Shown piece by piece: positions 15,272-20,983 of a stretch of DNA of 38,597 bases; the stretch's first letter is position 1, and each line of letters opens with the position of its first letter. Both the position numbers and the translations under genes were made by a program. This stretch comes from Candidatus Methanoperedens sp. (lineage in GTDB: Archaea; Halobacteriota; Methanosarcinia; Methanosarcinales; Methanoperedenaceae), in NCBI GenBank assembly GCA_027460525.1, contig JAPZAS010000020.1, forward strand, positions 1 to 38,597, given 5' to 3'. The notes under the pieces are model-generated. The model saw only the letters and a program-made list of their open reading frames with translations. It had not been told where the DNA came from and searched no databases.

Positions 15272-15517
15272 ATGAAAACAAAAGTTGCACGGAGGCATCA
15301 AATTACAATTCCAGAAGAAATCCGTAAAAAAGCCAGGATTGCAGTAGGCGATGTCCTGGATATTTCATATAAGCGCGGAAAAATCCAGGTAGAAAAAATC
15401 GATCAGAACTGGGATAAAGTCATGAAAGAGACAAAAGGCGCATGGCGCAAACATCCCGTGTTTAAAGAAATGGAGGATGCGGTTGAAATAGTGAACTGGA
15501 TGCGTGGGAAGAAATGA
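15272..15517 (+). CDS. vapB: AbrB/MazE-fold antitoxin (VapB-like)
   Basis: An 81-residue protein with an N-terminal swapped-hairpin AbrB DNA-binding domain (ARRHQITIPEEIRKKARIAVGDVLDI) and a C-terminal helix that would hold the toxin. Its stop overlaps the PIN gene start by 4 bases (ATGA at 15514). It would bind the inverted repeat at 15247 and repress its own operon. Confidence 0.88.
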   Translation: MKTKVARRHQITIPEEIRKKARIAVGDVLDISYKRGKIQVEKIDQNWDKVMKETKGAWRKHPVFKEMEDAVEIVNWMRGKK

Positions 15518-15957
15518 AATATTCGCTGGACACAAATGTGATCATAAGCCATTTCAAAGGAGACAAATTTTCAAATGATACAGACAGCTTTTTTGCATGG
15601 GTAAAACATGCAGGACATGAGATATACATTGCAGATATTGTATATGCCGAACTTTATACCGGGGTTTATCTATCAAACGATTCGGCAAATGAAGAAAAGC
15701 GTCTGCAGCGCTTCTTAGCCGTGAATAACATCGAGGTAAAATGTACAACCGCAAAAACCGCAAAAAAAGCAGGTGAGCTCTATGCAATAAACCTGTTAAA
15801 AAATAAACGGTCGTTAAAACGTATATTGCCTGACTTTATTATTGGAGCGCATGCCGAACAGTACAGCGATGCTCTTGTTACATGGAACCCATCTGATTAT
15901 GATATAAACAAAGCTGTAATGACGCCCGTGGAAATTATTACGCGGTCATATATTTAA
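15514..15957 (+). CDS. vapC: PIN-domain ribonuclease toxin (VapC-like)
   Basis: A 147-residue PIN nuclease. The metal-binding acidic residues are at the start (SLDTNVIISHF), in the ADIVYAELYTG segment and near LPDFIIGAHAE. VapC toxins typically cleave tRNA or rRNA. It is translationally coupled to the antitoxin gene (4-base overlap), the normal vapBC order. Confidence 0.88.
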   Translation: MKYSLDTNVIISHFKGDKFSNDTDSFFAWVKHAGHEIYIADIVYAELYTGVYLSNDSANEEKRLQRFLAVNNIEVKCTTAKTAKKAGELYAINLLKNKRSLKRILPDFIIGAHAEQYSDALVTWNPSDYDINKAVMTPVEIITRSYI

Positions 15958-16112: not shown

Positions 16113-16544
16113 CTAACGCCCTTTCACCTTCATCGCAATTCGTTTCCCAAACTCCCTGCACTTCTCCAACCCTGCTTCATCAGGTTTTTCATGTATCAGA
16201 AGCCCTTCTAAAGTCTCCATGCCGTAACCTTTCAACCTGTTCGTGATCAGGTCCACCACTTCCGCAGACCAGCCATAGGAACAGAAGGCTGCCCCAACTT
16301 TTCCTTTGAGGTCCACATCCTTTGCCTGGTCAATTAACACCTCAAGGGCTGGCATTATTTCATGATGATAAGTACCCGAACCGAGAACCACACCGTCAAC
16401 ATTCTTGATATCCTCAATCTTTGCCTCATGGACATGCGAGAGTTTCACATCCACTTTTTCTGACTTTATTCCGTCTGCTATCGCTTTTGCCATCATCTCG
16501 GTATTATGCGTTGCAGAATCGTATATTATTGCCACTTTCGCCAT
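16113..16544 (-). CDS. Stand-alone flavodoxin domain, FprA-like; last gene of the sulfur/Fe-S operon
   Basis: A 143-residue flavodoxin with FMN-binding loops: YDSATHNTEMMA (phosphate), GSGTYHHEIMP and FCSYGWSAEVV. It resembles the flavodoxin domain of FprA without the diiron domain and is similar to the copy at 4521. It has a gggga ribosome site and starts 24 bases after the stop of the IscU-reductase gene, so it is probably on the same transcript. The likely role is electron transfer to or from the upstream fused flavoprotein. Confidence 0.85.
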   Translation of the reverse strand: MAKVAIIYDSATHNTEMMAKAIADGIKSEKVDVKLSHVHEAKIEDIKNVDGVVLGSGTYHHEIMPALEVLIDQAKDVDLKGKVGAAFCSYGWSAEVVDLITNRLKGYGMETLEGLLIHEKPDEAGLEKCREFGKRIAMKVKGR

Positions 16545-16568: not shown

Positions 16569-17903
16569 TCATCTCCAATAAGGTTTCCTCAATTCAATAT
16601 ACGCATTGTGCGCCACAGTTGCACCGTGCGCCACCGCTACCACAACGAGCTGCAAATCAGAGGCGACGTCTCCGACTGCATATACCCCATCGATATTTGT
16701 TTTCTGGGTTTTGTCGGTCTTCAGGTATCCTTTCTCATCCATCTCAAGTCCGAGCTTCTTGAATATCTCAGTATTCGGTGTCATGCCCACTGCCAGCACA
16801 ACTGCATCCACGACCTGCTGGATGGTTTCATCTTCCTTCAGGTCTTTCATGATGACTTTTTCGACCTTGTCTGTTCCTGTGATTTCCAGAACCTCGGTAT
16901 TGTACAAAACCTTGATTTTATCGATCGATTTCATGCGCTCGATCTTGTAGGGCTCTGCCCTTAACTCGTCTTTCCTGTGCGCTATAGTAATGAGGTCGGC
17001 AGTATCTGCCAAACTCAAAGCTGCATCAACGGCTGAATTGCCCCCGCCCACGATGAGAACGCGCTTTCCTGTTAATTTCTCAGGATTCGTGACATAATAA
17101 TATACTCCCCGTTCGTTCTTGCTGAATTTCTCTTCACCCTTGACGCCTCCGGCGGCAGGGGAGCTGCCCGTGGCGAGAACAATTATCTTCCCTTTGTATT
17201 CTCCGCTTTCCGCAATGATCTTCCTGTCCTGGGTGATCTCATTCACACGTTCCTTTTTTAATTCCACTTTCAATTTCTTGGCTTCATTCACCCACTGGTT
17301 GACAAGGTCCTGGCATGTTGATTTCTCACAAAGCCCTGGGAAGTTCTCGATCATCTTGTTAGGGCATAGCCATGAAAGAATGCCCCCCCAGTTTGAAGCC
17401 TCGAAGATGGCAGTTTTAAGGCCCCTGTAGGCGCACAATATGCCGGTAGTCAGCCCGCCCGGGCCCCCTCCCACAACGATCACGTCAAAATCGTATTTCT
17501 CTGCCTCAATCTTTGCGTGCTCTTCTTTTTTGCTCATGTAATTCTGTATGGCAGCGTGAAGGGCATCCGCAGCAAGGTTAGAGCAGTGCATTTTGATAGG
17601 GGGAAGACCGTCAAGCTCGGCCGCAACATCGCCGCGGGTGATCTTGAGCGCTTCTTCAAGCGTTTTTCCAATCGCCATTTCTGTGATCATGCTGCTCGTA
17701 GCAATCGCAGAGCCGCAGCCGAACGTCTTGAATTTCACATCCTTCAGGATATTATTCTCGACTTTTATCTGGATCTCCATCAAATCCCCGCATACGGGAT
17801 TCCCGACTCTTCCCACTCCGTCCGCATCTTTGATCTCACCCACATTCCGCGGGTTCCTGAAATGATCCATTACCTTTTCTGAATATTCGAATTGTTCTTC
17901 CAT
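16569..17903 (-). CDS. IscU scaffold fused to thioredoxin-reductase-like FAD protein without CxxC
   Basis: A 444-residue fusion. Residues 1-127 are an IscU/NifU-N scaffold with its three cluster cysteines: Cys38 (GNPVCGD, with the Asp at 40), Cys63 (FGCGSA) and Cys107 (MHCSNL). Residues 137-444 are a FAD/NAD(P) flavoprotein of the thioredoxin-reductase type: GGGPGG (145-150), VLATGSSP, a second nucleotide fold (GGGNSAV, 287-293) and AVGDVAS. The redox pair CATC that normally precedes the second nucleotide fold is absent; the place reads GVYYYVTNPEKLTG. So it is not a disulfide reductase and resembles ferredoxin/flavodoxin-type NAD(P)H oxidoreductases. It follows the desulfurase-like gene by 9 bases, with the ribosome site overlapping that stop. 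Confidence 0.88.
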   Translation of the reverse strand: MEEQFEYSEKVMDHFRNPRNVGEIKDADGVGRVGNPVCGDLMEIQIKVENNILKDVKFKTFGCGSAIATSSMITEMAIGKTLEEALKITRGDVAAELDGLPPIKMHCSNLAADALHAAIQNYMSKKEEHAKIEAEKYDFDVIVVGGGPGGLTTGILCAYRGLKTAIFEASNWGGILSWLCPNKMIENFPGLCEKSTCQDLVNQWVNEAKKLKVELKKERVNEITQDRKIIAESGEYKGKIIVLATGSSPAAGGVKGEEKFSKNERGVYYYVTNPEKLTGKRVLIVGGGNSAVDAALSLADTADLITIAHRKDELRAEPYKIERMKSIDKIKVLYNTEVLEITGTDKVEKVIMKDLKEDETIQQVVDAVVLAVGMTPNTEIFKKLGLEMDEKGYLKTDKTQKTNIDGVYAVGDVASDLQLVVVAVAHGATVAHNAYIELRKPYWR

Positions 17904-17912
17904 TTATTTCAC

Positions 17913-19076
17913 CTATTTCTCATGATAAAGCGGCGATAATGCCCTGAGTTTAGCTACTATTTTAGGTACTGAGTCTATGACATAGTCAACATCCTCTTCC
18001 GTGTTCGATTTGCCGAGCGTGAGCAGAAGTGAACCGTGTGCTTCCTCATGCCTCAATCCCAAAGCAATAAGCACATGCGACGGCTCAAGCGTTTTCGTGG
18101 AACATGCCGAACCCGTGCTTGCTGTTATTCCCAGGTCGTTGAGCTGCAATATGATGCTCTCGCCTTCGATGAAACTGAATCTAAAACTTGCATTGTTGGG
18201 AAGCCTCTTTGTCCTGTGACCTGTGAGGTAAGTATACTCCATTTTCAGGATATTATCTATCAGCCTGTCCCGCATCTTTATGAGCCGTGCGCCTTCATCG
18301 ACCATTTCCTTCTGGGCAAGTTCCGAAGCTTTCCCCATCCCCACTATGCCGGAGATATTCTCGGAGCCGCTTCTCATGCCGGATTCCTGCCCTCCGCCAA
18401 GCATGAAAGGCATGAGCCTTACATCCTGTTTGATATAGAGCGCCCCAGCGCCTTTTGGACCGTACATATCATTGGAAGATATAGTCAGAAGGTCGATGTT
18501 TTCATCTTCGACATTGACAGGCACCTTGCCAACTGCAGCCGTCCCATCCACATGGAACAGTATCTTCTTATCTCTTGCGATCTCGCCTATTTCTTTTATG
18601 GGGTGCACCGTTCCCACTTCTCCATTGGCGTACATCACGGACATAAGTATAGTTTTGTCCGTAATCGCATTCTTTATTTTCTCGGCACTTACCAGCCCAT
18701 CTTTATCCACAGGAATATGCGTGACCTCAAACCCGCTTCTCTGCAAATCTTTCAGGGGATTCATCACAGACATGTGTTCCACGGAAGTGGTTATTATATG
18801 ATTCCCTTTATCCTTATACCGCATAGCAGCACCACGCAGGGCAAGATTGTTAGATTCAGTGGCGCAGGAAGTGAATGTGATGCTTTTCGGATTCGGCGCG
18901 CCAATCAGGTTTGCAACTTTTAGACGTGCGCTCTCAAGCTCCCGTTTGGCTTTTCTTCCTGCAGAATGAAGGGAAGAGGGATTCCCAACATCTTTATCAA
19001 AATATGGCATCATGGCTTCAAGCACTCGCGCATCAACTGGCGAGGCTGCACCGTAATCCATGTAAGCCTGTCTCAT
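17913..19076 (-). CDS. IscS/NifS-like protein lacking the PLP lysine
   Basis: A 387-residue homologue of cysteine desulfurase. The fold motifs are there (MDYGAASPVD start, TSCATESNNLAL, SVEHMSVMN with His101, HVDGTA). The loop that normally reads S-H-K-I-Y before GPKG reads S-N-D-M-Y, so Asp203 replaces the lysine that binds pyridoxal phosphate. The PLP-contacting Gln of HVDxxQ is Ala180. The persulfide cysteine loop is intact (TGSACSTK, Cys325). Relative to E. coli IscS each position is shifted by exactly three. An Asp at this place is, to my memory, reported for Archaeoglobus fulgidus IscS. It cannot desulfurate cysteine by the usual route; it may relay sulfur to IscU. The start at 19076 has aaggtga upstream; 19097 is an alternative. 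Confidence 0.9.
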   Translation of the reverse strand: MRQAYMDYGAASPVDARVLEAMMPYFDKDVGNPSSLHSAGRKAKRELESARLKVANLIGAPNPKSITFTSCATESNNLALRGAAMRYKDKGNHIITTSVEHMSVMNPLKDLQRSGFEVTHIPVDKDGLVSAEKIKNAITDKTILMSVMYANGEVGTVHPIKEIGEIARDKKILFHVDGTAAVGKVPVNVEDENIDLLTISSNDMYGPKGAGALYIKQDVRLMPFMLGGGQESGMRSGSENISGIVGMGKASELAQKEMVDEGARLIKMRDRLIDNILKMEYTYLTGHRTKRLPNNASFRFSFIEGESIILQLNDLGITASTGSACSTKTLEPSHVLIALGLRHEEAHGSLLLTLGKSNTEEDVDYVIDSVPKIVAKLRALSPLYHEK

Positions 19077-19096: not shown

Positions 19097-19258
19097 TTAT
19101 ATCCGTCTATCTCTTCCCTCTGGACCTTCGCATTCAGGTATGTAGCAGGTCGCATCGATAAAAGCGCAAGCCTCTTTACATGATGGACACCTGCCTGGTG
19201 GTGTCGCCTCCCCCTCGAACTGATAGCCGCATAACGAACATTTCCACTGGATTTTCAT
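19097..19258 (-). CDS. Rubredoxin-like small cysteine protein
   Basis: A 53-residue protein: WKCSLCGYQFEGEATPPGRC then CPSC, with further Cys at 31, 38 and 43. Cys7, 10, 24 and 27 form the two CxxC knuckles of a rubredoxin-type iron (or zinc) site, while the additional cysteines resemble those of short Fe/Zn-ribbon proteins near redox enzymes. The start at 19258 has an aggggaag ribosome site overlapping the stop of the DsrE-like gene; a frame extension to 19294 is disfavoured. It is the second gene of the operon, so electron delivery in sulfur transfer is a reasonable guess. Confidence 0.75.
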   Translation of the reverse strand: MKIQWKCSLCGYQFEGEATPPGRCPSCKEACAFIDATCYIPECEGPEGRDRRI

Positions 19259-19265
19259 ACTTCCC

Positions 19266-19625
19266 CTAAAACCACATCGTTCCGTCCGCTTCAAGCACTA
19301 GATCATTGAGCGTGGCAGCCCCAACAATTTCAGCCGCTGGAACGAAATCTCCCTTTGCAAGGTTTATGAGCTGGCAGCTCTGCTCGCATACCATGAGTTT
19401 TACTCCTGCTTTTACCGCCTCGTCCATGACTTCTTTTAAGGACGGAAAACTTCCCATCTTTATCTTCGCTGCATTCCCTTTTTTCACCACTGTTATTCCC
19501 ATTCCGAGAAAATATATTGTTGCGTCTATCCCCATTGCTTTTGCGGTCTGGGCAAGGATAAAAGGTGAATACAGACGCTCCGGGGTATCGATTCCGCTGG
19601 TCTGGACATATAGCATGTTTGGCAT
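19266..19625 (-). CDS. DsrE/TusD-like sulfur-carrier family protein
   Basis: A 119-residue DsrE/F-fold protein: MPNMLYVQTSGIDTPERLYS, then ATIYFLGMGI, and the key loop KLMVCEQSCQL, with Cys80 at the position of the sulfur-carrying cysteine of DsrE/TusD and Cys84 next to it (CxxxC). DsrE-type proteins hold persulfide and pass it on. It is the first gene of the operon with a gggag ribosome site, so it is well placed to supply sulfur to the desulfurase-like protein. Its TATA-like element is tgtattattaacc on the minus strand (about 19651-19663). Confidence 0.82.
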   Translation of the reverse strand: MPNMLYVQTSGIDTPERLYSPFILAQTAKAMGIDATIYFLGMGITVVKKGNAAKIKMGSFPSLKEVMDEAVKAGVKLMVCEQSCQLINLAKGDFVPAAEIVGAATLNDLVLEADGTMWF

Positions 19626-19726: not shown

Positions 19727-20983
19727 TCAGGATATCTTCACTCTGGCATCGATGACAGATATGCACTGCTGTAATTCATGCCTTTTCAATTCAATATTAT
19801 GTTTAAGGGATGCAAGACGCTCTTGTGATGCTCCAAGTTCCTTTTCAAGAGCAGTAAGTTTCTCATGCAAATCTGCACTTACCCTGGTCAGGTGTGCTTC
19901 TTCATGGGCTGCGTTCAATTTGGATATCTCATCTTTTTTCCTTCCGATATCCAGGACAAGCAGCTGATATTCATTTTTGTATTTCCCAAGAGATGGTATT
20001 ACAAGACTTGTTTCTTCCAGGATTTTATTGTTTTTTTCAGGCGTCAGGTTCAGGACACCACTTCCAACGATTTTTTGAAATTCAATAAAGAAATCAGGAA
20101 CTACCTTTACCGGGTCGGATATGCAAAAATTCAAACCTTCTTTGTCCTGTGGTTTTAGGGTGTACCGCCCGCTGTCGCTCAACTGCTTGAGCCTGCCCAG
20201 GGCTTTGTTCAGAGGGGAAATAATACCCCTGATTTCGGATTCTACTTTTTTTGCATTGTTTTCAAGCAACATAAGCTCGCTCCTTAAATTTGTATACTGT
20301 CTCCAGGAGTCGTTTTCCTTAAGGAGGGAAAGAGCTTTTTGTTTCTCTTCAATCTCATTTTTCAAAAGACTAATTTTTTCCTGGTTTTCTTTTATTACTT
20401 TTTCCCTGAGCTCGATATCCGAGGTCATATTTTTTATATTATGTATCAAGCCTCTGGCATTTTCAAAAGCATCCAGCACATTTTTTTGATCGTTTATGGG
20501 TTCGATCAATTGATTAAGAAGTCTTCCAAGCGCATTCACATCTGCTATGACGTTTTTTGATTCTTCGATAAACAGCAATTTGGTATACTGATAACTCTTC
20601 ATCATGTTCTCAAGACATACGGTCAGGGTTTGCATTGCGTTTTCATGAAAAACCACTATGCTTTTGATGTCAGAAGCCTGCGGGATGGTTATATTCTCCA
20701 GAAGCATTCTTACCTGCCGTGCCATGTTATCCCGGTTGCTTGTGGCAATCTTCACCATTTTGAGATGGAATCTTCCCTCAGGCTGTGCCTCTTCAAGTAA
20801 AGCAGTGCTCTCTTTTATCTCCTCGAGGGCACCCTGGATCTCGAAGTAGCGAGAAGAGGCATTTTTGCTGATTTCAGAGGATATTTTTTTTGACTTTACA
20901 GCAAGCCATTCTGGAAGCTCCTCAAATTTTATCTGGGATGGAGATTCTTCTTTTTGTCCAAAGAGCCTGTCAATCCATTTCAA
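19727..20983 (-). CDS. Coiled-coil protein of unknown function
   Basis: A 418-residue soluble protein made mostly of long helices. Heptad-rich coiled coils run through about residues 35-100, 185-260 and 345-405 (LKNEIEEKQKALSLLKEN is typical). A non-coiled insert around 270-320 (SGRYTLKPQDKEGLN... FIEFQKIVGSG) may be a small globular domain. There is no signal peptide or membrane segment. It opens MKWIDRLFGQKEE. The architecture resembles cytoskeletal or chromosome-associated coiled-coil proteins but I cannot name a family. A TATA-like gtaaatatatc precedes it (minus strand, about 21043-21053). Confidence 0.7.
   Translation of the reverse strand: MKWIDRLFGQKEESPSQIKFEELPEWLAVKSKKISSEISKNASSRYFEIQGALEEIKESTALLEEAQPEGRFHLKMVKIATSNRDNMARQVRMLLENITIPQASDIKSIVVFHENAMQTLTVCLENMMKSYQYTKLLFIEESKNVIADVNALGRLLNQLIEPINDQKNVLDAFENARGLIHNIKNMTSDIELREKVIKENQEKISLLKNEIEEKQKALSLLKENDSWRQYTNLRSELMLLENNAKKVESEIRGIISPLNKALGRLKQLSDSGRYTLKPQDKEGLNFCISDPVKVVPDFFIEFQKIVGSGVLNLTPEKNNKILEETSLVIPSLGKYKNEYQLLVLDIGRKKDEISKLNAAHEEAHLTRVSADLHEKLTALEKELGASQERLASLKHNIELKRHELQQCISVIDARVKIS

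Follow-up and report, generated by a model that had tools for sequence, protein, structure and literature searches.

The window, by which we mean the whole analysed stretch of 38,597 nucleotides, carries an operon centred on an iscS gene. The genes of this operon and of its immediate surroundings are the following:

15272-15957, plus strand: genes for a MazE-type antitoxin and then a PIN-domain protein, adjacent to the operon and likely to form a toxin-antitoxin pair
16113-16544, minus strand: short-chain flavodoxin, 143 aa (Pfam Flavodoxin_1, E 1.7e-18; flavodoxin 5wid, 8e-26)
16569-17903, minus strand: IscU fused to a FAD/NAD(P)H flavoprotein of the thioredoxin-reductase/FNR fold (Pfam, alignment and fold matches)
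17913-19076, minus strand: class-I IscS devoid of the PLP lysine (Lys-less), 387 aa (ORF and alignment, AlphaFold model, fold matches)
19097-19258, minus strand: rubredoxin-like mini-protein, 53 aa (MKIQWKCSLCGYQFEG...RCPSCKEAC...; sequence, Pfam RUBY_RBDX)
19266-19625, minus strand: DsrE-like sulfur carrier of 119 aa, encoded by the first operon gene (Pfam DsrE PF02635, E 1.9e-17; Cys within MVCEQS)
19727-20983, minus strand: a 418-aa coiled-coil-like protein beside DsrE, kept in about 12 Methanoperedens loci, for which no Pfam family or known domain was found at E 1e-3

The operon therefore reads DsrE, rubredoxin-like mini-protein, IscS, IscU-flavoprotein fusion, flavodoxin, and it is tightly packed: the stop codon of the mini-gene overlaps an upstream in-frame ATG of iscS (TAATG), 9 bp separate iscS from the fusion gene, and 24 bp separate the latter from the flavodoxin gene. 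The mini-protein contains seven cysteines and scores 30.8 bits with RUBY_RBDX (cut-off 26.5). An ORF for it occurs at the corresponding position in another 14 Methanoperedens-type rows (two of these, L016 and L135, represent one genome, in which the ORF looks frameshifted), and it is conserved in many though not all Methanoperedens loci.

In the fusion protein, IscU spans residues ~6-127 (NifU_N, 8.9e-50) and the flavoprotein residues ~139-435 (Pyr_redox_2, 3.2e-44). The IscU ligands C38, D40, C63 and C107 are invariant in the alignment. The reductase domain has fold matches to TrxR and FNR2, but CxxC is absent from this domain of the IscU-reductase fusions, which rules out a true thioredoxin reductase. 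Such fusions are present in Methanoperedens, ANME-2-like (family f3) and Asgard genomes. The minimal MisS-MisU (MIS) system consists of a class-I cysteine desulfurase and an IscU-type scaffold with little else. The window does hold an IscS-IscU pair, surrounded by DsrE, the rubredoxin-like protein, the fused reductase and flavodoxin. MIS systems have been described previously (PMC12442378, PMC12192291).

The iscS reading frame (387 codons' worth of protein) contains no internal stops, and its product matches Pfam Aminotran_5 (E 7.5e-75). An earlier note on this DNA had proposed that the protein is a cysteine desulfurase homologue with Asp in place of the PLP lysine. Alignment to E. coli IscS and to homologous rows, a check suggested in that note, left its residue calls standing: within the motif ISSNDMYGPKG, Asp203 lies at the PLP-lysine position (K206 of E. 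coli IscS), Ala180 lies at Q183, and His101 and Cys325, the equivalents of H104 and C328, are intact. To these the alignment adds Asn202 in place of H205, and Leu351 where the substrate-carboxylate Arg is expected (HGSLRLT in the paralogue), a residue which in IscS binds the carboxylate of cysteine. The minus-strand orientation, the 53-aa mini-gene preceding iscS and the IscU-flavoprotein fusion were likewise absent from that note. The catalytic Lys, the substrate Arg and Gln183 of PLP-dependent class-I cysteine desulfurases are all missing, while the mobile-loop persulfide Cys of the class is present. The protein scores 500.7 bits with NCBIfam TIGR03402 (NifS; cut-off 530.75), compared with 570.9 bits for the Lys-containing paralogue from the same genome, and it falls below the curated cut-offs of both TIGR03402 and TIGR02006.

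The AlphaFold model of the protein (pLDDT 89.3) has its top PDB fold matches in 4eb5 and 4eb7, the IscS-IscU complex of A. fulgidus. The A. fulgidus IscS entries 4eb5, 4eb7 and 4hvk align to the window IscS at E ~1e-140 and carry ISSNDIYGPKG, and entry 4r5f is entitled "D199K mutant of the cysteine desulfurase IscS from A. fulgidus"; the same Asp, which the earlier note had attributed to this species, is therefore confirmed there. A sequencing error that hides an original HK pair can be excluded because Lys cannot become Asp by fewer than two base changes, N-D is found in 70/70 rows of its clade, and dN/dS between the window iscS and four Methanoperedens copies is 0.04-0.06. The last value, together with the intact ORF, also rules out a pseudogene. 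Judged from its sequence, the window IscS is unlikely to be a working desulfurase. The view that this protein cannot carry out normal desulfuration finds support both in the joint loss of K206, H205, Q183 and the substrate Arg and in what PMC7585200 (citing Pagnier 2014) states for A. fulgidus IscS, namely that it has no desulfurase activity owing to the same Asp.

The same genome encodes a second, Lys-containing IscS (G000:C36:130982-132121; SAHKIYGPKG motif), after which comes a separate IscU of its own, so that the normal copy which the earlier note had advised looking for does exist. Both kinds also co-occur in G361, G340, the ANME-2-like f3 genomes and Methanosarcinaceae. By contrast, all class-I IscS copies of A. 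fulgidus (G117; one contig of 2,178,400 bp) are Lys-less (N-D), and the Lys-less form is therefore independent of a normal partner. Several Bathyarchaeota-type genomes, most of them incomplete, gave no Lys-containing class-I match.

The residue survey comprised a set of 108 rows, among them 70 with the N-D pair and 31 Lys-containing class-I controls. All 70 N-D rows have lost both K206 and H205 and have kept the Cys and the His104 equivalent; Ala stands at Q183 in 65 of them, and the Arg is lost in 68. Conversely, the equivalents of K206, H205, Q183, Arg, Cys and H104 are retained in 31/31 controls. The four residues K206, H205, Q183 and Arg have thus decayed jointly in the K-to-D clade, whereas the PLP-pocket equivalents of T76, H104, D180 and S203 are kept in nearly all of its rows. 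The relay Cys (equivalent of Cys325) is present in 75/75 Lys-less rows. Two copies from Methanoperedens nitroreducens (L023 and L024) are N-D yet retain the substrate Arg (HGSLRLT). In the N-D IscS of Thermoplasmatota (L059, L081, L082) the Cys motif is SSSPC, not GSAC, and IscU is not adjacent; TusA and/or DsrE lie upstream where that sequence exists.

In a tree calculated with the catalytic columns left out, the N-D rows group in a single clade (bootstrap/SH-aLRT 100/99), to which the window IscS, with its intact Cys and the iscU 9 bp downstream, belongs together with the A. fulgidus type. Its nearest loci, at 80-89% identity, are from Candidatus Methanoperedens. A second Lys-less group, with the motif SAHTIHGPRG (K to T) and found in Methanosarcinaceae-like genomes, forms a clade of its own (100/100), although a single Lys-less clade was not rejected by the tree test (p-AU 0.313). 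Methanosarcina IscS1, being K to T and placed in this other clade, is ruled out as a member of the N-D class. N-D iscS genes occur in Methanoperedens, the ANME-2-like family f3 and Archaeoglobaceae, and also in Bathyarchaeota, Asgard-type archaea, Thermoplasmatota, Hadesarchaea and a few bacterial MAGs. A DNA-pattern census of genomes, which undercounts because of codon and residue variants, gave matches in 11 of the 393 genomes in the phylum, of which one or more (that in G248) look like chance, and in 31 of the 101 genomes in the class of a Bathyarchaeum genome.

A rule emerged from the genes directly upstream of iscS. TusA and/or DsrE were encoded there in 71/76 Lys-less loci versus 0/37 Lys-containing loci (counting loci whose upstream sequence reaches 500 bp or more; carrier on the same strand within 900 bp), a comparison made with TusA and DsrE HMMs built from Lys-less loci, which could make it less sensitive to diverged carriers beside normal iscS genes. 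In 18 of the 37 Lys-containing loci an Rrf2 regulator is found instead, and among the gene orders listed Rrf2 holds the carrier position in most Bacillota loci. Two of the five exceptions (L014, L078) have only ~630-645 bp of upstream sequence; the other three (L038, L043, L142) have long flanks with no recognised TusA or DsrE and are real exceptions at the 900-bp threshold. The linkage holds in the K-to-D clade as well as in the K-to-T clade. The Fisher p of 1e-24 overstates independence, since many rows are relatives of one another and the linkage traces back to about two phylogenetic origins. It should be regarded as a strong pattern, and the number of loci should not be read as a number of separate events. 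Conservation of the carrier cysteines is complete (CPxP of TusA in 50/50 and the Cys of DsrE in 52/52 at Lys-less loci), and in most of these loci iscU follows iscS.

In the window the carrier gene adjoining iscS, with its conserved Cys, is that of DsrE. TusA is missing from the Methanoperedens locus, and the own genome encodes six TusA matches elsewhere. One of them, L178 (G000:C19), is an orphan TusA of the operon type (LDCVGLYCPIPIF) located downstream of a nitroreductase-like gene; it shares 56-59% identity with the operon TusAs from ANME-2-like f3 genomes and is a candidate donor for the DsrE and IscS of the window.

Several known systems resemble the locus in part. The closest is IscS2-IscU of A. 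fulgidus, in which Asp likewise replaces the Lys, Ala replaces Gln183 and Leu the substrate Arg, the Cys is intact, the IscU gene is adjacent, and TusA and/or DsrE lie upstream. Unlike in the window, the A. fulgidus IscU is unfused, no rubredoxin-like ORF separates DsrE from IscS, and the genome lacks a Lys-containing paralogue. IscS1 of M. acetivorans (MA0808), noted by Deere et al. 2020 to lack the lysine (PMC7585200), also retains the Cys, and loci of related Methanosarcinaceae have TusA-DsrE upstream and IscU downstream. However, Methanosarcina IscS1 differs from the window IscS in having Thr and not Asp, Asp at H104, His at Q183 and a retained substrate Arg, and in belonging to a separate clade. 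The IscU encoded next to the K-to-T IscS of Methanosarcinaceae also differs, in that it carries a C-terminal FeS_assembly_P (DUF59/MIP18-type) domain (L139, 7321-7962); this accounts for the size of the M. acetivorans IscU1, reported as 24.2 kDa. The Pfam scan covered L139 alone, which has relatives L140-L147. Canonical IscS, NifS and MisS share the fold, the mobile-loop Cys and the IscU partnership with the window protein, but have the PLP Lys, Gln183, His205 and the substrate Arg. Finally, the TusA-TusBCD/DsrEFH relay of E. coli and Allochromatium vinosum employs carriers of the same TusA and DsrE families, with a conserved Cys, alongside IscS; there IscS is the active donor, whereas here it would be the acceptor.

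The near-constant presence of carrier genes, taken together with the lost residues, suggests that Lys-less IscS receives ready-made sulfur. The explanation that we favour, and hold to be probable on the sequence evidence, is a PLP-independent, sulfur-relay version of the ISC/MIS machine, in which sulfur would pass from DsrE/TusA to Cys325 of IscS and then to IscU, with flavoproteins as reductants. IscS would have lost the chemistry of cysteine desulfuration and kept its fold, the mobile-loop Cys325 and the partnership with IscU. A small carrier (here DsrE, probably assisted by a TusA whose gene lies outside the operon) would place a persulfide on Cys325, and the loop would swing it to IscU as in normal IscS. 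In canonical ISC systems the persulfide is reduced by ferredoxin. In the relay this task may fall to the IscU-fused reductase, the flavodoxin and the rubredoxin-like protein, which would use NAD(P)H electrons to convert persulfide to sulfide for the [2Fe-2S] cluster. Arguments for the relay are the linkage and its recurrence in two clades, the conserved cysteines of both carriers and IscS set against the joint decay of the PLP and substrate site in the K-to-D clade, the low dN/dS, the genomes that hold both kinds of IscS, and the fused or adjacent redox partners. The earlier note had suggested that IscS serves in a sulfur relay or as a scaffold partner, with the DsrE-like protein as one possible feeder; the linkage gives this strong comparative support, although the relay itself is still something that we infer. 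That sulfur moves from carrier to IscS is our assumption, and reverses the E. coli order. The ultimate source of the sulfur may be sulfide, polysulfide or thiosulfate, or else cysteine by way of another desulfurase. Contact between a carrier and IscS is possible, since the E. coli IscS-TusA complex has been solved (PDB 3lvj, among the structure matches), and A. vinosum DsrE can be persulfurated by sulfide alone (PMC3397948).

The main rival to the relay, possible but in our opinion clearly the less probable of the two, is that Cys325 merely provides an extra ligand for the cluster on IscU, that free sulfide is the sulfur source, and that TusA and DsrE are neighbours for some other reason. This is how A. 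fulgidus IscS, close to the window IscS in both fold and sequence, is described in PMC7585200 (citing Marinoni 2012, Yamanaka 2013 and Pagnier 2014): in the IscS-IscU structure it contributes a Cys ligand, but not sulfur, to the [2Fe-2S] cluster. Such a role leaves unexplained both the restriction of the TusA/DsrE linkage to Lys-less copies and the fusion of an electron-donating flavoprotein to IscU. The same linkage, the E. coli IscS-TusA complex and the direction of the E. coli Tus relay, from IscS to TusA (PMC3397948), would also fit an export hub, in which an unnamed donor loads IscS and the sulfur proceeds to DsrE/TusA, there to serve tRNA thiolation or the synthesis of other cofactors, in the manner of normal IscS-TusA. 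We find this unlikely: a donor is still needed, because an IscS with such residues cannot make persulfide from cysteine, and iscU is what follows iscS in most Lys-less loci. PLP might still bind, given the retained T76, H104, D180 and S203 equivalents, and the protein could then be an enzyme that holds PLP non-covalently and acts in an altered reaction or on another substrate; the simultaneous loss of Lys, Gln183, His205 and the substrate Arg, and the inactivity published for A. fulgidus IscS (PMC7585200), make this quite improbable. Least plausible of all is a regulatory or heterodimer partner that pairs with a catalytic IscS chain and modulates it, for although this genome and many others hold both copies, A. 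fulgidus, with its exclusively Lys-less class-I copies, speaks against it (and makes an obligate heterodimer with normal IscS unlikely), as do the Bathyarchaeota-type genomes without a Lys-containing match, most of them incomplete.

To our knowledge, as far as the literature was searched (largely open-access papers), loss of the Lys has not been tied to TusA/DsrE operons before, nor has the IscU-flavoprotein fusion been described; the linkage rule would therefore be new, whereas Lys-less IscS itself was already known. The rule bears on a question raised by the A. fulgidus, Methanosarcina and SMS papers, that is, how Fe-S clusters are assembled without a working cysteine desulfurase in archaea living on sulfide, thiosulfate or elemental sulfur. 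For the puzzling A. fulgidus IscS-IscU complex it names TusA and DsrE as likely sulfur donors, and the fused flavoprotein, flavodoxin and rubredoxin-like protein as likely electron donors, so that the question becomes testable with proteins that have already been crystallised. It also follows that Lys-less iscS genes should not be labelled by annotators as active cysteine desulfurases.

The host, Candidatus Methanoperedens, is a methane-oxidising archaeon with an IscS whose active site has no residues for taking sulfur from cysteine. On a broader scale, we give an even chance to the proposal that loss of the Lys marks a cysteine-independent form of the ISC/MIS machinery. This form would extend across many archaeal phyla and some bacterial MAGs and would have been reached in two ways, as K to D and as K to T; in it, TusA/DsrE persulfide carriers would stand in for the desulfuration of cysteine, and the reduction of persulfide would be driven by a flavoprotein that several lineages have fused to IscU.
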